Shown: positions 18,568 to 61,349 of the stretch, one piece after another
Layout: each line of letters begins with the position of its first letter
Position numbering within the stretch: the first letter of the stretch is position 1
NCBI GenBank assembly: GCA_000158155.1
Contig: DS999407.1
Location: 381,087 to 445,086 of the forward strand
Direction: 5' to 3'
Source of the DNA: a gamma proteobacterium NOR5-3
Lineage (GTDB): Bacteria > Pseudomonadota > Gammaproteobacteria > Pseudomonadales > Halieaceae
Length of the DNA stretch: 64,000 nucleotides
Program-made: the position numbers and the translations under genes
Notes under the pieces: model-generated
Seen by the model: only the letters and a program-made list of their open reading frames with translations
The model's database searches: none
Told to the model about the DNA's origin: nothing

Positions 18568-19434
18568 ATGGCACACCCGCCTGACTACCGGGGCCGCTTT
18601 GCCCCCTCGCCTACCGGCCCATTACATATGGGCTCCCTGCTGGCAGCCCTCGCGAGCTATCTGGATGCTCGCTGTGCGGGTGGCGCCTGGCTTTTGCGTA
18701 TGGAAGACATCGACCCACCGCGAGAAATGCCCGGTGCCGCGGACCGCATTCTTCGCTCGCTGGAGGCCCATGGCCTGTGCTGGGACGAGTCGGTGCTGTT
18801 CCAGTCGACTCGCCGGGACGCCTACGAAGAAGCACTGCGAGTTCTCGAGGAAGCCGGCCGCGTGTTTGCCTGCTGCTGCAGCCGCGCCACGCTGGGTCCC
18901 GGCGGCAGCTGTCTGGGTCGCTGCAAACCCAGAGCCGGCCAGCCTATATCCCTGAGAATTCGCCTGCGCGGCGATACAGGCTTCGATGATCAGATACTGG
19001 GTCTCCAGCCGCCGGTGAATACCCACAGTGATCTGGTGCTGCGACGAAAAGACGGGCTGTATGCCTATGCCCTGGCCGTTGTTGTGGACGATGCCTGGCA
19101 GGGCATCAACCATGTTGTTCGGGGCTCGGACCTGCTCTTACAAACATTTGCCCAATTGGAGATATTTCGGGAGCTGGCTGCCACCGCACCCCAATACGCG
19201 CATCTGCCCCTGGTTCGAGACACCCAGGGCACCAAGCTGAGCAAGCAAACCGGCGCGCGGGCCATCGATGATGCCTTTGCCGTGGACAACCTTCGCAGCG
19301 CACTGCGATTACTCCAACAAGACAGTGCAGATATGCCTGCCAGCTCAACCGGGGAGCTGCTTGACCTCGCTGTGAATAACTGGCGCCCCCGGGTGCTCAG
19401 TGCGCTTGCGGAAAAAAGCCTGGTTTACCCGTAG
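18568..19434 (+). CDS. gluQ: Glutamyl-queuosine tRNA(Asp) synthetase
   Basis: A 288-residue truncated glutamyl-tRNA synthetase without an anticodon-binding domain. It puts glutamate on the queuosine base of tRNA(Asp). Seen are APSPTGPLHMGSLLAAL (HIGH-type motif), RMEDIDPPRE, a Cys cluster around CCCSRA ... CLGRCK that would bind zinc, HVVRGSDLL, and GTKLSKQTGA in place of KMSKS. It follows dksA by 22 bp, as in E. coli and Pseudomonas. Confidence 0.95.
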   Translation: MAHPPDYRGRFAPSPTGPLHMGSLLAALASYLDARCAGGAWLLRMEDIDPPREMPGAADRILRSLEAHGLCWDESVLFQSTRRDAYEEALRVLEEAGRVFACCCSRATLGPGGSCLGRCKPRAGQPISLRIRLRGDTGFDDQILGLQPPVNTHSDLVLRRKDGLYAYALAVVVDDAWQGINHVVRGSDLLLQTFAQLEIFRELAATAPQYAHLPLVRDTQGTKLSKQTGARAIDDAFAVDNLRSALRLLQQDSADMPASSTGELLDLAVNNWRPRVLSALAEKSLVYP

Positions 19435-19536: not shown

Positions 19537-20664
19537 ATGAATGTGCTTTATCTGGCCATCCCGTCTGCAGCCATGCTCATTGCGCTGGTCATGCTGTACC
19601 GCCAACGCCGGGAATATCAGCAAACCTTTGAGGAGCTGCCCACCGGACTTTGCGTAGTGGGCAGCGACCACCGGGTACAGCGCTGGAACCGGCAAATGTC
19701 GAATCTCAGTGGAATCTCCGCAGGCGAGGCGATTACAGAGAATATTGCCAATCTACCAAGCCCCTGGCCCGGGGCACTAAGCGACGCACTGAAAGACCCC
19801 CGGGGCAAGGTGATCAAGCAGTCTTTGGGGTATGACGACAATGGCGGAGAGCGCTGGGTCATTTTGCACAGCAGTGCTCTGCAACTTCCCGGCCGCAAAC
19901 GCCAGATTCTGGTAGAGGACATCACAGACTATCAGCGGCTTCAGGACGAGCTGCTGCACAACGAGCGCCTGGCCTCCATTGGACGACTCGCCGCCGGTGT
20001 AGCCCACGAGATAGGCAACCCGGTCACCGGTATCGCCTGTATTGCGCAAAATCTGGCGGACAACGCCGATGCAGCGGAGCTCGAGCTGGGCACCTCAGAA
20101 ATCCTCAAGCAGACCGAACGCATCTCGCGCATCGTGAGCTCTCTCATGCAACTGTCGCATCCGGGCAGCGTGCCCCGGGATGCTGACTGTGTGCCGTGCA
20201 ATCTGGCGGACTGTATTGACGAAGCGGCTCATCTACTGAGCCTTGATCGGGATGTGCCGCCGGGACATTTTGAAAACCTTGTCGACCGGGAGCTACTGGT
20301 GCAGGGTGATGGGCAATTGCTCCTTCAGGTATTCCTCAATTTATTGGACAACGCCCGCAGCGCTGCCGCCGAGGAGGGACCAGTGCTTATCGATGCGCAG
20401 CAGCAGGGTGACAACGTCATCATCACGGTGGATAACCCGGGTCCTGCGATTTCCCCGGACATTCTCTCCCAGGTGTTTGAACCCTTCTATACCACCAAGG
20501 ACGTGGGTGAGGGGACGGGCCTGGGCCTGGCTCTGGTGCGTCGTATGCTGGAGGACATGGGCGGCAGTGTGAGCTTGCTCAGCCCCTCGCCCGGCTCGCC
20601 AGGCTTCGGCGTTCGCGCCCGTGTCGTGTTACGTAGCGCAGACTATGGTCAGCGCTTCGAGTGA
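19537..20664 (+). CDS. Sensor histidine kinase, short CbrA-like (TM-PAS-HisKA-HATPase)
   Basis: A 375-residue membrane kinase. One membrane segment (residues 3-21) is followed by a PAS domain (about 29-135), a HisKA domain with the phospho-acceptor His157 in GVAHEIGNPVTG and a HATPase domain with FLNLLDNARSA (N box), VDNPGPAIS and GEGTGLGLALV (G2 box). It stands where Pseudomonas has CbrA, between gluQ and the sigma54 regulator. CbrA, however, carries a long SLC5-type transporter domain of more than ten membrane helices, and that is absent here. The partner is surely the next gene. Its signal may be cytosolic, through the PAS domain. Confidence 0.88.
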   Translation: MNVLYLAIPSAAMLIALVMLYRQRREYQQTFEELPTGLCVVGSDHRVQRWNRQMSNLSGISAGEAITENIANLPSPWPGALSDALKDPRGKVIKQSLGYDDNGGERWVILHSSALQLPGRKRQILVEDITDYQRLQDELLHNERLASIGRLAAGVAHEIGNPVTGIACIAQNLADNADAAELELGTSEILKQTERISRIVSSLMQLSHPGSVPRDADCVPCNLADCIDEAAHLLSLDRDVPPGHFENLVDRELLVQGDGQLLLQVFLNLLDNARSAAAEEGPVLIDAQQQGDNVIITVDNPGPAISPDILSQVFEPFYTTKDVGEGTGLGLALVRRMLEDMGGSVSLLSPSPGSPGFGVRARVVLRSADYGQRFE

Positions 20665-20739: not shown

Positions 20740-22179
20740 ATGCATAAGATACTGATCGTCGAGGACGAGTCAGTCATCCGAGCGGCCTTGCGCCGACTGC
20801 TGGAGAGACACGGCTACTCCCTCGATGAAGCGGCGTCCGTCGCCGAGGCGCAAAACAACTTCACCCTGGGTAACTACGACCTCATCATTAGCGATCTCCG
20901 CCTTCCCGGATCTCCCGGCACTGACTTGATTGCCCTTGCCGGCGCCACGCCTGTGCTCATCATGACAAGCTATGCAAGCCTTCGATCGGCGGTGGATTCC
21001 ATGCGCATGGGCGCGGTCGACTACATCGCCAAGCCCTTCGATCACGCAGACATGCTGCACGCCGTACAGCGGGTCATCGATAAGCACGCGCAGCAAAAAG
21101 GCGTCAAAACTAAAAAAGCATCCAAGGCGGAGCCCCTCGCTTCCGCTGGTGCCCGCGACCACAAAGTCACCATGATCATCGGCGAATGCGATGCCATGCA
21201 AACGCTCGCGGACCACGTCGAAAAATTTGCACCCACAGATTCCACAGTGTTGGTACTGGGTGAGACCGGTACGGGTAAAGAGCTTGTCGCTCGCGAGATA
21301 CATGCCCAGAGCAAAAGGGTAGAGCAGACACTGATATCAGTTAACTGCGCGGCGATCCCTGAGACGCTGATCGAGTCAGAATTATTTGGTTACGAGAAGG
21401 GAGCCTTTACCGGCGCCAATACCAATCGCATGGGCCTCATTGAGGCTGCGGACGGCGGCACCTTGTTTCTGGACGAAATTGGCGAACTCCCCATGGAGGC
21501 TCAGGCACGCTTACTACGTTTTATTCAAGAGGGAGAGATCCGGCGTATAGGCTCAGTCCAGTCGCGCAAAGTCGACGTGCGCCTCATCTGCGCAACCCAT
21601 CGAGACCTGCAAACTCTGGCCTCGGAAGGCAGCTTTCGCCAGGACCTTTTTTATCGCATCAACGTGTTGAGACTTAAGCTTCCACCTTTGAGAGAGCGCG
21701 GCAAAGACATTCTCTTCCTGGCAGAGCGACTACTGGAAAAGCAGGCCGTACGCGCAGGCAGGGCCGCCATGACGCTATCACCCCGGGCAATTCAGGCAAT
21801 CACCACGTACCAGTGGCCGGGGAATGTGCGCGAAATGGAACATGCTATCGAACGCGCGGTGATTCTTACCGAAGGCTCAGAAATCGACAATGATGCGCTG
21901 GGAATTGACCTGGAATTGGTCAATATCAATCGCCTGCGCGGCGACAGAGTCAGCAGCGCCGCTGTTAAGCGCCCGCCGCGCAACAGCGATCCAGTGGAAG
22001 ACCTGTCGCTGGAAGACTATTTCCAGCGCTTTGTGATCGAACACCAGGACTCCATGAGCGAGACAGAATTGGCCCAAAAACTCGGTATTAGCCGCAAGTG
22101 TTTGTGGGAACGTCGACAGCGCTTTGAAATCCCCCGCAAGAAAGCCGGCGGAAGTCGGCAGCGAAAAGCGGCGGGCTAA
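20740..22179 (+). CDS. Sigma54-dependent response regulator, CbrB/NtrC family
   Basis: A 479-residue three-domain activator. The receiver domain has the phospho-acceptor Asp52 in LIISDLRLPG and Lys98 in YIAKPF. A Lys-rich linker (about 115-140) leads to the AAA+ domain with Walker A GETGTGK (174-180), the sigma54-contact loop GAFTGA (221-226) and LFLDEIGELP (Walker B). The C-terminus holds a Fis-type helix-turn-helix (TELAQKLGISRKCLWERRQR). By position and architecture it is the CbrB counterpart, which in Pseudomonas switches on carbon- and nitrogen-source genes and the small RNA gene crcZ. A sigma54 promoter lies 125 bp past its stop codon. Confidence 0.92.
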   Translation: MHKILIVEDESVIRAALRRLLERHGYSLDEAASVAEAQNNFTLGNYDLIISDLRLPGSPGTDLIALAGATPVLIMTSYASLRSAVDSMRMGAVDYIAKPFDHADMLHAVQRVIDKHAQQKGVKTKKASKAEPLASAGARDHKVTMIIGECDAMQTLADHVEKFAPTDSTVLVLGETGTGKELVAREIHAQSKRVEQTLISVNCAAIPETLIESELFGYEKGAFTGANTNRMGLIEAADGGTLFLDEIGELPMEAQARLLRFIQEGEIRRIGSVQSRKVDVRLICATHRDLQTLASEGSFRQDLFYRINVLRLKLPPLRERGKDILFLAERLLEKQAVRAGRAAMTLSPRAIQAITTYQWPGNVREMEHAIERAVILTEGSEIDNDALGIDLELVNINRLRGDRVSSAAVKRPPRNSDPVEDLSLEDYFQRFVIEHQDSMSETELAQKLGISRKCLWERRQRFEIPRKKAGGSRQRKAAG

Positions 22180-22181
22180 CC

Positions 22182-22229
22182 GTTACCCTCCAATACTGAT
22201 ACCCACTGTAACAGTAGACATAGGTAACA
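22182..22229 (+). promoter_or_regulatory. Possible activator half-sites upstream of the sigma54 promoter
   Basis: One GTTAC (22182-22186) and two GTAACA (22208-22213 and 22224-22229, 16 bp start to start) lie 75-120 bp upstream of the -24 element. This is the usual distance for enhancer sites of sigma54 activators. The GTTAC/GTAAC pairing looks like half-sites of a Fis-type helix-turn-helix regulator. That the CbrB-like protein binds here is inference. Confidence 0.5.
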
Positions 22230-22303
22230 ACTGCGGCCAAAACCTAAAGCACGGCCTTACACAGAAAAAAATAAGCCCATGATTTTAATGGAATTTATTA
22301 TAC

Positions 22304-22319
22304 TGGCACAGAGCATGCT
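22304..22319 (+). promoter_or_regulatory. Sigma54 (-24/-12) promoter
   Basis: TGGCACAGAGCATGCT matches the consensus TGGCACGN4TTGCW: the -24 GG (22305-22306) and -12 GC (22317-22318) are exactly 10 bp apart. Only the A at the seventh position and the A before TGC differ. The start of transcription is expected near 22330. It faces away from the CbrB-like gene toward an A-rich stretch and a hairpin. Confidence 0.75.
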
Positions 22320-22329
22320 TTATCAGGCA

Positions 22330-22412
22330 TGCACAAAAATAAAAATAACGCGCACCGCAATAATAATAAATGGTTTAGTGAACCTGGAAGGGGGAAGTTA
22401 TTACTTCCCCCT
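22330..22412 (+). ncRNA. Putative CrcZ-like small RNA
   Basis: If transcription starts 12 bp after the -12 GC, the RNA begins near 22330. It holds two A-rich tracts with AAnAAnAA-type motifs: ACAAAAATAAAAATAAC (about 22332-22348) and CAATAATAATAAATGG (about 22358-22372). These are the kind of sites bound by the distal face of Hfq. A 10-bp perfect hairpin with a TATT loop (22389-22412) follows, then a TCGTTCGTTCT tail that is only partly T-rich, so termination there is likely but not certain. In Pseudomonas crcZ sits between cbrB and pcnB, is driven by sigma54 and CbrB, and sequesters Hfq/Crc. That RNA is about 400 nt long; this one would be near 85 nt. Small reading frames here lack ribosome sites. 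Confidence 0.55.
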
Positions 22413-22677
22413 CGTTCGTTCTGGCTCCCGTTGCCCCACCGGCGGAAGACTCAGAGGCGATACGGCGCTTTGTTGACCGCTCTGTTGACCGCCCTCTACC
22501 GACGCTCCTTTCTGCTCCCCTTTTTACCCCCCCTTTCCAGACTTCTTTCTACGCACCCACCCTACGCACCCACGAAGCGCAGCGATCTACACTCGTATCG
22601 ACGCTTTTTACGGTGGCTATGCTGTCAATAAATCGTCTGCACCAGACCTGCCACAACGCTAGGCCTGTAACCTGCCT
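22413..22677. other. Non-coding remainder of the gap before pcnB
   Basis: No convincing gene. It contains two short tandem duplications (TGTTGACCGC at 22471-22480 and 22483-22492; CTACGCACCCAC at 22549-22560 and 22562-22573). A pyrimidine-rich tract (about 22494-22550) includes TTTTTACCCCCCC. The pcnB promoter should lie here but no clear -35/-10 pair stands out. Confidence 0.5.
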
Positions 22678-24069
22678 GTGCTACCATGTGGCCGGTTTAA
22701 ACATGATCCTGAAAGCCGGACACTTACCGTTTTTTCCAAGCCTGCGATACGGATCGGCAGCGAAGCGCAGAGAAGATATTACCGCTTGAAAGTAATCCCC
22801 AGAGATCAGCATTGTGTCTCGCGCAAGGACATCAGTCCGGGCGCGCTGAAAGTCATGTCCCGCCTGAGAGACCGCGATCATCAGGCGTATCTTGTAGGCG
22901 GTGCTGTTCGCGATCTTCTCCTGGGCGGACATCCAAAAGACTTTGACATCGCCACGGATGCGACCCCGGAAGAGGTTCACGCACTGTTTAGCAATTCCCG
23001 GATTATCGGTCGTCGCTTTAGAATTGTGCATGTCAGATTTGGCCGGGAAGTTATCGAAGTCACCACCTTTCGCGGGCACCACGATGACGGCGACCCCACA
23101 GGTCCGGCGGCCAAGCGCTCCTCGCGCGGACTACTCCTTCGCGACAACGTTTTTGGCACTCTCGAAGAGGACGCTGTGCGGCGCGACCTGACGGTAAACG
23201 CGCTGTACTACGACAGCGGCAGTTTTGAGGTGTTTGATCAGGTTGGAGGCCTCGATGACCTCGAGGCACGGCAGGTGCGTGTTATCGGCGACCCGGCCAA
23301 GCGCTACCGCGAAGACCCGGTGCGCATGCTCAGAACCCTGCGTTTTGCAGCCAAGCTGGATTTTCGCGTAGAAAAAGGCAGCGGCGCACCTATCGCCGAA
23401 CTGGCATCGCTACTGGATGATATTCCTGCAGCGCGACTCTTTGACGAATTTGGCAAGCTGTTTCTCGCGGGCAATGCGCAGCTAACCCTGCGCCTGCTCC
23501 GCGAGTACCGGTGCTTCGACCATCTGTTTCCCGATAGCGCAAGGCTGGCCGATACAGACCCCTTCTACGACCGATTGCTGGACGCCGCGATGGGTAACAC
23601 GGACCAGCGTATTCGACAGGGAAAACCCGTCACGCCCGCGTTTATCCTTGCCGCAATACTGTGGCCCGCGGTCTGCGAACGGCGTCAACAGCTGGAAAAA
23701 CAGGGCGAGAAGCCCGTTCCGGCAATGCACGGTGCAGGGCAGGAGGTCGTTGCCCAGGCCTGTCAGCGCATTGCCATCCCCCGTCGCTTTAGTATGCCCA
23801 TGCGCGAAATCTGGGAAATGCAGCTTCGTTTGCCGCGCACCGAGGGGAAGCGCGCGCTTGAGCTCATGAGCAAACGTCGCTTTCGTGCCGCCTATGACTT
23901 TTTGCTCCTCAGAGAGCAAGCCGGCGAAGATTGTGCAGGACTCGGTGCCACCTGGACACGCCTGCAGGAAGAACACGGGCCTATCGAAATTATAGATGCG
24001 CCGGAGGATCACCGCCCACCTCGCCGCCGCCGTCGCGGCGGCCGCAGACGCCCGGCTCCTGACGCGTGA
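22678..24069 (+). CDS. pcnB: Poly(A) polymerase I
   Basis: A 463-residue RNA 3'-adenylating enzyme of the class II nucleotidyltransferase family, which tags RNAs for decay. LVGGAVRDLLLGGHPKDFDIAT holds the GG and DxD catalytic motifs; GRRFRIVHVRFG and EDPVRMLRTLRFAAKLDF are typical, and a basic tail (RPPRRRRRGGRRRP) ends the protein. From VIPRDQHCVSRKDIS onward it aligns with E. coli PcnB. The start is uncertain: GTG at 22678 is used here, but no good ribosome site precedes it. A later start near the TTG at 22789 is possible; E. coli pcnB also begins at a rare codon. folK overlaps by 4 bp. Confidence 0.93.
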   Translation: MLPCGRFKHDPESRTLTVFSKPAIRIGSEAQRRYYRLKVIPRDQHCVSRKDISPGALKVMSRLRDRDHQAYLVGGAVRDLLLGGHPKDFDIATDATPEEVHALFSNSRIIGRRFRIVHVRFGREVIEVTTFRGHHDDGDPTGPAAKRSSRGLLLRDNVFGTLEEDAVRRDLTVNALYYDSGSFEVFDQVGGLDDLEARQVRVIGDPAKRYREDPVRMLRTLRFAAKLDFRVEKGSGAPIAELASLLDDIPAARLFDEFGKLFLAGNAQLTLRLLREYRCFDHLFPDSARLADTDPFYDRLLDAAMGNTDQRIRQGKPVTPAFILAAILWPAVCERRQQLEKQGEKPVPAMHGAGQEVVAQACQRIAIPRRFSMPMREIWEMQLRLPRTEGKRALELMSKRRFRAAYDFLLLREQAGEDCAGLGATWTRLQEEHGPIEIIDAPEDHRPPRRRRRGGRRRPAPDA

Positions 24070-59607: not shown

Positions 59608-61308
59608 TCAGGCTTGAGCCAGGCGCTCGCTCATTTCAGCTTTTAGCTGTCGTTTGAAAATTTTGCCCGTGGCAATGCGTGGCAGTGCTTCGTCATGAAA
59701 ACGCACATAGGCAGGTATCTTAAATCCGGCAATGTGTTCCCGTAAGAAGCTCTGCAGATCCTCAGTGCTCAGGCTTTGGCCGTCTCGAAGTACCACGCTG
59801 GCCGCCACCGCCTCTCCGAGACGCTCGTCAGGCACACCGTAAACCGCGGCTTCACTGACTGATGGGTGCTGATAGATGCCAGCCTCCACCTCGATGCAGC
59901 TGATGTTTTCACCGCCCCGGATAATGATTTCTTTCATTCTGTCGACAATAAAGAGAAAACCCTCCTCGTCGATGTAGCCCACATCCCCGGTATGAAACCA
60001 ACCGTCACGGAAGGCCTCGGCGGTAGCTTCGGGTTTGTTCCAGTACCCCAGGCAGTTTGCCGGCGAGTGAATACACACCTCACCACGTTCACCCGCTGCT
60101 ACGGGCTTGTCGTGCTCATCAAATATGGCAATGTCAGTGACCGCTGGCACTGGTGGGCCGGCACTGCCCGGGCGTGCCCGATACACCGCACCCGTGTTAA
60201 TGGTGCCCAGGGCGTTGGTCTCGGTCAGCCCGTAGCCAATACCTGCTGATGAATGCTTAAAAGTCGTTGCGAGCTTTTCGACCTGCGCAGGCGGCCTCGC
60301 CGCTCCGCCACCGTAAATCTCTGCAAGCGAGGACAGATCCCGATCCGATTCCGCCGCCGCAGCCTGCAACTCCGCCGACATGGTGGGAACACCAGTGAAC
60401 CAGGTAATACGCTCCTCTTCGATCAGACGCAGCGCTTCCTGTACGTCCCACTTATGCATGATTACCAGCTTACGACCTACGATGAGTGACAGCAGAAAAG
60501 CCGTGTGACTGCCGGTGCAGTGAAACAGAGGGATAGTGAGCAAACCCGACGGGGGAAAACTGGCAGGAGCCGTGTCGCCCGCGGCCTGCTTGCCTGAGGT
60601 GCCCAGCAACATCCAGCTGTACAGTGCCGACAACATTCCCCGGTGTGAGGACAACGCCCCCTTGGGGTGCCCCGTGGAGCCTGAGGTATACATGATAGTC
60701 GCGTAGTCATCGGGCGCGACCGGCACCTCGGGCATTTCTGCACCTGCGTGTTCATCCACCAGATCCTGGAACTGACTGAAAGCCAGATCCAGTCCGCTGC
60801 AGTCATCCACCGCAATAAGCTTTAGCGCAAGGTCTTTCTGCAAAGGAACAAGGCGCTCCAGACGTTGGCGGTCCGCGATCACGACCTTGGCACCACTGTC
60901 GCGCAAGCCGTAATCGAGCTCCTCGGTGGTCCACCAGGCGTTCATGGGCACAGCGACCGCACCGATGGACAGCGCGGCGATAAACCCCATCATCCACTCG
61001 GGATTGTTGCGACTGAGGATAGCCACCCGATCACCGGGAAGCACGCCAAAGTCATCAATAAGCGAACGGGCCAGGGCCGCCGATTGAGCGTAGCTTTCGC
61101 CGAAAGTAAGCCGCTGATCACGATACACCGTGAATGTCTTTTGCGAATGGTTGAGCATGAAACGGAAATAAGCGCCCATGTTCGGCGGCGCCGAGCTAAA
61201 GCTTCGATACTCCGCGCCATCTATGGTGACTGTCTCAAGCGCAAAGGGCGCGCCTTGTTGAGTCAGCTGCGCTACCACAGCATCAATTTTTTGCAGTTCT
61301 TCACTCAT
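59608..61308 (-). CDS. AMP-dependent acyl-CoA ligase
   Basis: A 566-residue member of the ANL family that activates a carboxylic acid with ATP and CoA. MYTSGSTGHPKGALSSH is the AMP signature, GYGLTETNALG and TGDVGYIDEEGFLFIVDR follow, IIRGGENISCIEVE is the hinge and PRIATGKIFKRQL holds the catalytic Lys. It starts the pathway encoded by this operon. The substrate cannot be told from sequence alone; medium or long chain and cyclic acids are all possible. Confidence 0.9.
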   Translation of the reverse strand: MSEELQKIDAVVAQLTQQGAPFALETVTIDGAEYRSFSSAPPNMGAYFRFMLNHSQKTFTVYRDQRLTFGESYAQSAALARSLIDDFGVLPGDRVAILSRNNPEWMMGFIAALSIGAVAVPMNAWWTTEELDYGLRDSGAKVVIADRQRLERLVPLQKDLALKLIAVDDCSGLDLAFSQFQDLVDEHAGAEMPEVPVAPDDYATIMYTSGSTGHPKGALSSHRGMLSALYSWMLLGTSGKQAAGDTAPASFPPSGLLTIPLFHCTGSHTAFLLSLIVGRKLVIMHKWDVQEALRLIEEERITWFTGVPTMSAELQAAAAESDRDLSSLAEIYGGGAARPPAQVEKLATTFKHSSAGIGYGLTETNALGTINTGAVYRARPGSAGPPVPAVTDIAIFDEHDKPVAAGERGEVCIHSPANCLGYWNKPEATAEAFRDGWFHTGDVGYIDEEGFLFIVDRMKEIIIRGGENISCIEVEAGIYQHPSVSEAAVYGVPDERLGEAVAASVVLRDGQSLSTEDLQSFLREHIAGFKIPAYVRFHDEALPRIATGKIFKRQLKAEMSERLAQA

Positions 61309-61349
61309 CGTTTTTATTGTGTCCTGTGCTTGCGGGCAAATTCGGTGCG

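Follow-up and report, generated by a model that had tools for sequence, protein, structure and literature searches.

Gene content and order of the locus

The window, a 64,000-nucleotide stretch of DNA analysed as a whole, belongs to a genome of 4.2 Mb in six contigs. Its open reading frames (ORF) give the gene order dksA–gluQ–cbrA–cbrB–(RNA)–pcnB–folK, followed by panB, panC and acs. pcnB and folK were identified by NCBIfam, and dksA, gluQ, panB, panC and acs carry the names that we presume from their translations. The same order presumably surrounds crcZ in Pseudomonas, and by synteny the gap between cbrB and pcnB occupies the position of Pseudomonas crcZ. The features of the locus are as follows.

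18568..19434, + strand: gluQ-like gene, the ORF upstream of cbrA, as in Pseudomonas
19537..20664, + strand: cbrA without transporter half, PAS-HisKA-HATPase, 375 aa, one hydrophobic stretch
20740..22179, + strand: cbrB, sigma54-dependent response regulator (Pfam; 63% identity to Pseudomonas CbrB)
22182..22186, + strand: predicted CbrB subsite F1 (GTTAC), -122 from the promoter start
22208..22212, + strand: predicted CbrB subsite R1 (GTAAC), -96
22224..22228, + strand: predicted CbrB subsite R2 (GTAAC), -80
22304..22319, + strand: sigma54 promoter TGGCACAGAGCATGCT, a pattern match that recurs in relatives
22330..22425, + strand: predicted CrcZ-type small RNA, both ends putative
22335..22348, + strand: A-rich tract 1 with ARN repeats, putative site for the Hfq distal face, a conserved alignment block, predicted unpaired
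22359..22370, + strand: A-rich tract 2 with ARN repeats, putative site for the Hfq distal face, conserved, predicted unpaired
22382..22387, + strand: ACCTGG, conserved element directly 5' of the hairpin
22389..22412, + strand: 10-bp hairpin AGGGGGAAGT-TATT-ACTTCCCCCT, putative terminator or 3' protecting stem
22780..24069, + strand: pcnB, poly(A) polymerase, start putative (NCBIfam pcnB, 492 bits)
22329-22631, + strand: 100-aa ORF with ATG at 22329, rejected as a gene

In the NCBI taxonomy Pseudohaliea is placed in Halieaceae, order Cellvibrionales; the order of our genome surveys is probably the wide Pseudomonadales of GTDB.

Promoter and A-rich motifs

The earlier note had described a near-perfect sigma54 promoter 125 bp past the stop of a cbrB-like gene (22179), with GTTAC/GTAAC half-sites upstream and two A-rich tracts and a perfect 10-bp hairpin downstream. 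All of these are present in the sequence: the promoter at 22304-22319, the half-sites at 22182 (GTTAC), 22208 and 22224 (GTAAC), the tracts at 22335-22348 and 22359-22370, and the hairpin at 22389-22412. In TGGCACAGAGCATGCT the GG (22305-22306) and the GC (22317-22318) are spaced by 10 bp.

The promoter alone is not rare, since the strict sigma54 pattern matched once in the 64-kb window and 1.1 matches were expected, a figure that would suit a chance match in an AT-rich gap. The motif AAYAANAAYAA was found twice against 0.3 expected in the same window, both copies just 3' of the promoter, and none of 60 simulated windows (first-order chain) held the promoter followed by two such motifs.

In 37 of 38 relatives a pcnB gene was found, and 30 loci were taken from them. 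All but one of the 30 (L030) have a TGGCA(C/T)-N6-TGC site upstream of pcnB, and a CbrB-type C-terminus could be read in 25. The CbrB C-terminus also served as query in a separate scan, from which the best 80 of 553 relatives were kept; they span Halieaceae, Spongiibacter, Zhongshania, Gilvimarinus, Cellvibrio, Microbulbifer, Pseudohongiella, Pseudomonas and others. The full layout was defined as at least two GTTAC/GTAAC words within 170 bases before a sigma54 site, together with AAYAANAAYAA within 200 bases. Among these best 80 of 553, 79 loci were readable (L046 was too short), and the layout was found 3' of cbrB in 72 of the 79, or in 68 of 75 when Pseudomonas was left out; it was absent in seven (L060, L066, L070, L084, L091, L095 and L102). 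Mononucleotide-shuffled regions gave it in 0 of 1,580. With this recurrence, and with the conservation in relatives given below, it is hardly conceivable that the features are a chance match.

Two metagenome-bin contigs labelled Verrucomicrobiaceae and Klebsiella pneumoniae (L074 and L091) carry a CbrB locus like those of the order, so that these taxon labels look wrong; the full crcZ layout is present in L074 and absent in L091.

The predicted CbrB operator

The operator was read in 75 regions that contain a TGGCA site; of these, 69 came from the best 80 of 553 relatives and six were others; L012 and L041 are the same genome. Between cbrB and the promoter these regions contained 232 GTTAC/GTAAC words against 27.5 expected from mononucleotide shuffles, with at least two words in 73 of the 75. 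The words hold fixed places. F1, a forward word, lies at -117 to -126 in 67 of 75 regions, and R2, in reverse, at -77 to -83 in 68. R1, also in reverse, lies at -95 to -107 in 40, or in 47 when either orientation was accepted; all three were in place in 38.

The source locus has the sigma54 promoter and the upstream F1, R1 and R2 words. In the source genus R1 is at -96 or -97, about 6 bp nearer the promoter than in relatives, with F1 and R2 at the usual places. The four Pseudomonas loci (L109, L113, L117 and L118) have the operator positions of the 75 regions, with F1 at -122 or -123. In P. putida, CbrB is aided by an IHF site that lies between its own sites and the promoter. A forward-reverse-reverse layout with 20-25 bp spacing was established for P. 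putida crcZ by mutation and gel shift, according to the part of that study available (PMC6296734).

Conservation within the genus and the family

We compared the locus with three sister genomes. The RNA (22331-22412) is 95, 78 and 72% identical, close to the last 500 bases of cbrB (77, 73 and 71%) and a 211-base stretch of pcnB (78, 70 and 74%). The promoter (88, 62 and 81%) and the operator stretch 22180-22240 (80, 54 and 61%) are also kept, and the bases from operator to promoter are 35-49% identical. The conserved block stops at the pyrimidine-rich tail after the hairpin, and the 260 bases from this tail to pcnB are only 22-40% identical. The alignment of this gap in relatives had been put forward as a check, in which the promoter and A-rich motifs should be kept where the flanking genes are kept; it was carried out and came out in favour.

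These comparisons also bear on the 100-aa ORF. Its frame is open from the ATG at 22329 to 22631, and it could be read as a small protein gene. The ATG is missing in sister genome G002, the one that is 95% identical over 22331-22412, and the frame lies mostly within the unconserved spacer; the ORF was rejected on both grounds, and we give a protein product practically no chance.

Another reading is that the sigma54 promoter makes a long pcnB leader, by which CbrB would raise poly(A) polymerase at carbon shortage, with the A-rich part as an Hfq site in the 5' UTR. pcnB does lie downstream on the same strand, and the T-run after the hairpin is weak. Against a leader, the spacer up to pcnB is poorly conserved in the genus, relatives hold two modules or two tandem promoters in the gap, and in L029 pcnB is preceded by a hairpin whose T-run is strong. 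In Pseudomonas, where the order is cbrA–cbrB–crcZ, crcZ is a separate transcript, as the accessible text of a review states (PMC8871633). We consider the leader very unlikely, and a separate CrcZ-type RNA is the reading followed below.

Anatomy and ends of the predicted RNA

The predicted start of the RNA lies 12 bases past the GC element of the promoter. The 3' end was placed from the hairpin and the conserved tail and is putative, because the T-run after the hairpin is poor (CGTTCGTTCT). A compact RNA of about 85 nt had been proposed, which agrees with the conserved segment of about 85-95 nt with two A-rich tracts in the genus. Both tracts are unpaired in the predicted fold, which has a z-score of -2.07, with 6 of 200 shuffles folding equally well.

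RNA alignments A1 and A4 were built from 23 of the 30 pcnB loci; L025, L027, L028, L029 and L030 were left out for lack of an ACCTGG or promoter match, and L024 and L031 as distant. ACCTGG is nearly invariant across the family although it is outside the stem, and the next G run is conserved too. Conservation of both beyond the needs of a hairpin would suit a base-pairing small RNA with Hfq as chaperone and the ACCTGG...GGGG as seed, instead of a sponge. ACCTGG was located no more than 140 bases from the promoter in 25 of the 30 pcnB loci and is less widespread than the ARN tracts and the CbrB words, and the known CrcZ works by titration, as described in the part of the CrcZ study consulted (PMC4063720). 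A base-pairing RNA is thus an unlikely reading, and a sponge of the CrcZ type is preferred.

In the family the first tract (AATAAnAATAA) is flanked by co-varying arms. The stem was tested on 26 of the 30 pcnB loci (L024, L027, L029 and L030 were out) by arm-swap permutations, with a motif pattern widened by eye to admit odd copies; 0 of 20,000 permutations reached the real helix score and 1 of 20,000 the real energy, in a statistic that ignores relatedness. The motif-bearing stem is poor in the source genome, where the best perfect helix is 3 bp. When the plain alignment was given to RNAalifold, the motif stem was missed and pairs within the promoter were proposed; this result was rejected and arm swapping used instead. 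Two-sided change was found by RNAalifold at one of ten pairs.

A second copy of the tracts and hairpin was read in 15 of the 30 pcnB loci, and the alignment of second copies (A2) took 15 of 19 candidates, with L005, L009, L022 and L024 taken as chance matches. All four genomes of the genus have a single copy. This is also the case in some other genera (for example L009, L022 and L023), so the short form is not unique to this genus.

RNA model searches

In a search of the whole genome at E<=10, the sole match of the Rfam CrcZ model was 22325-22426 (21.1 bits, E 0.0023), covering positions 276-379 of the 398 in the model, which is its 3' part. The gathering cut-off of RF01675 is 95 bits and was missed both here and in a relaxed-E search (17.8 bits), and the same permissive search also matched in 9 of 14 control genomes; by itself the Rfam match is therefore weak. 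At gathering score the window contained nothing but tRNAs among Rfam families. Matches of StyR-143, Xist_exon1 and Vax2os1_3 in the gap at relaxed E were rejected as chance.

For model R2 we took 19 sequences from the family's other genera and excluded the source genus. Over the genome at E<=1, its sole match was the RNA gap (E 5.3e-6; 150 of 518 first-look candidates scored). Model R1 includes the source genus. No second copy of the RNA was found in the genome by R1 (150 of 609 first-look candidates scored) or by R2. R1 matched 58 of 293 genomes of the order, and as its filters are strict, the missed genomes should not be taken as absences. On the relatives' loci R1 was applied to 34 of the best 80 of 553; it weakly matched the 3' end of crcZ in Pseudomonas loci L117 and L118 (E 0.04-0.05) and gave no match at 0.1 in L109 and L113.

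The source RNA does not have the several hundred nucleotides and about six tracts of a full-length CrcZ. Being below the cut-off, it should not be filed under RF01675 as the family stands. The RNA had been called a CrcZ-like analogue. Its CrcZ type is borne out by the synteny, the operator, the CbrB of 63% identity and the Crc, Hfq and RpoN described below, and ortholog is the better term, because the Rfam CrcZ model and the genus-free model both point solely to this gap.

Partner proteins

CbrB of the window shows 63% identity to Pseudomonas CbrB over 472 aligned positions. It contains Response_reg and Sigma54_activat (Pfam) and the CbrB-type C-terminal HTH. RpoN and Hfq genes are present in the genome, the latter with the segment YLVNGIKLQ, which we take to be part of the Hfq distal face.

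The Crc protein, of 253 residues, adjoins pyrE and joins an ExoIII-like fold with lost catalytic residues. Its best PDB match was P. aeruginosa Crc (1.9e-58), and as exonucleases followed close behind (3e-55), the assignment does not rest on the PDB match alone and is backed by the pyrE linkage and the lost residues. In 30 loci with Crc-type or ExoIII-type proteins, 19 were pyrE-linked, 10 were of ExoIII type and one was cut. We presume that the catalytic residues of ExoIII are the Glu and the Asp of SDHAP. In the pyrE-linked loci the Glu is replaced in all 18 that were read (16 D, one G and one N) and the Asp in all 15 read; both residues are kept in 10 of 10 ExoIII-type loci.

Elsewhere in the window, CACAATAAAAACG was found at 61308-61318 on the minus strand, just 5' of the start codon of the gene 59608-61308. 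This gene is presumably acyl-CoA synthetase-like and the next one acyl-CoA dehydrogenase-like. The gene 59608-61308 is a candidate Hfq/Crc target.

CbrA without the transporter half

A PAS-HisKA-HATPase kinase adjoins cbrB in the window, with 52% identity to the kinase part of Parahaliea CbrA and 43% to Pseudomonas CbrA. The SLC5-STAC transporter half (13 TM) was not found in it. CbrA is 375-385 aa and directly follows gluQ in all four genomes of the genus (source, L120, L121 and L122), and it is 983-1,019 aa in four other genera of the family. Both genes were read in 66 of the best 80 of 553 relatives. Counted from the earliest start codon available, CbrA is 973-1,109 aa with 9-14 hydrophobic stretches in 65 of these loci. 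Judged from these reading frames, the genus has lost the CbrA transporter half found in nearly all relatives read. The sole exception among the 66 is L063, a metagenome bin with a short CbrA of 370 aa, where the gene may be broken or the half lost in parallel.

Pfam at E 0.001 named no transporter family even in the full-length CbrA of Parahaliea and Pseudomonas. The term transporter half hence rests on the length, the hydrophobic stretches, an identity of 47% between Parahaliea and Pseudomonas CbrA in their N-terminal halves, and published work on the Pseudomonas protein. When all four genomes of the genus were searched with this half, no split-off transporter gene for the short CbrA was found. 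The search matched one SLC5-like hybrid kinase per genome at 32-33% identity, an ORF of about 1,200 aa in the source genome, which from its architecture we take to be CrbS. A relative with full CbrA has such an ORF besides its own CbrA. At 33% identity to the CbrA transporter half, this kinase is not the missing piece of CbrA.

In P. putida, a delta-TM CbrA works only when over-produced, responding to carbon, and its authors read this response as an intracellular signal, as given in the portion of the paper available (PMC6591292). SLC5 is described as dispensable for phosphotransfer in the part of another study at hand (PMC7096432).

Distribution across the order

Of 293 genomes sampled from the order, 265 have the CbrB C-terminus, as do 32 of 276 from the class; three of these 32 belong to the order. 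Twenty representatives from 19 families were picked by hand from the order-scan matches; under a slightly looser rule the layout follows cbrB in 17 of them, in 16 of the 19 families. It was absent after cbrB in L170, L171 and L182 and in a further order locus, L160. The layout test took in five of the 30 order-scan loci (L150, L152, L153, L155 and L156), all positive, and nine new loci of the class scan. In all seven CbrB loci from outside the order the layout was absent. By these matches CbrB-type regulators range wider than the order, and CrcZ, on few outside loci, seems bounded by it.

Four of the 20 representatives (L169, L172, L176 and L184) carry tandem crcZ-like genes, each with its own operator words and sigma54 promoter. 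In genome G033 (L171 and L027) the promoter and A-rich motifs lie before pcnB and cbrB is about 2.5 kb upstream, so the pair is separated there. Viral contigs gave 161 pattern matches with no CbrB relative among them.

CbrAB is unique to Pseudomonadaceae according to a review (PMC8871633), and exclusive of the Pseudomonads according to a research paper (PMC6296734). In the open-licence literature we found no published report contradicting this restriction, and the words "homolog" and "gammaproteobacteria" are absent from the available part of PMC13022988. The earlier note had placed the system in another gammaproteobacterial lineage. It does occur outside Pseudomonas, in Halieaceae, but not as one lineage, as the layout is present in most sampled families of the order.

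We are inclined to regard CbrAB-CrcZ-Crc/Hfq as an ancestral carbon switch of the whole order (the wide Pseudomonadales of GTDB) and not an invention of Pseudomonadaceae, of which this genus would hold a natural minimal form: a transporter-free CbrA reading an intracellular signal via PAS, and one of the shortest CrcZ-type sponges, with two binding tracts.

Proposed function and comparison with known systems

What this Halieaceae bacterium carries is very probably a compact regulatory RNA of the CrcZ type, orthologous by position to Pseudomonas crcZ. Under a shortage of preferred carbon, CbrA, a PAS-kinase, would activate CbrB, which would bind F1-R1-R2 at -122, -96 and -80 and drive the sigma54 polymerase at 22304-22319. 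Transcription, dependence on CbrB, binding of Hfq/Crc, release of targets and both ends of the RNA are predicted here from the sequence. The mechanism so predicted is a known one; its place is unexpected and its small form unusual.

Should the wider distribution be confirmed, a Crc/Hfq carbon control as yet undescribed would exist in many marine heterotrophs. The genus with transporter-free CbrA is a natural counterpart of the P. putida delta-TM mutant, and allows the signal of CbrA, and the reason for its fusion to a transporter, to be tested directly. With its two tracts, the RNA offers a minimal system for the question of how many Hfq hexamers a sponge must bind.

Compared with CrbS/CrbR, the source genome keeps one SLC5-like hybrid kinase ORF. 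Compared with CbrA/CbrB of Pseudomonas and Azotobacter, the locus has the same gene order, with CbrB at 63% and the kinase part of CbrA at 43% identity, but CbrA of the source genus is without the SLC5-STAC half and the lineage is outside Pseudomonadaceae. Crc-Hfq catabolite repression is represented here by its genes, a Crc at pyrE with replaced Glu and Asp and an Hfq gene. CrcZ of Pseudomonas stands together with CrcY and CrcX of P. putida, Azotobacter and P. syringae; against CrcZ, CrcY and CrcX, the RNA of the source genome scores below the Rfam cut-off and no second copy was found. CrcZ of P. aeruginosa has 407 nt and six A-rich tracts, and these bind Hfq at its distal face, with about one hexamer per tract, as stated in the available text (PMC4063720); with about 85-95 nt and two tracts, the RNA here would have a lower sponge capacity per molecule. 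It shares with CrcZ (RF01675) the position between cbrB and pcnB, the sigma54 promoter, the F1-R1-R2 words, the ARN tracts and the G-rich 3' hairpin.
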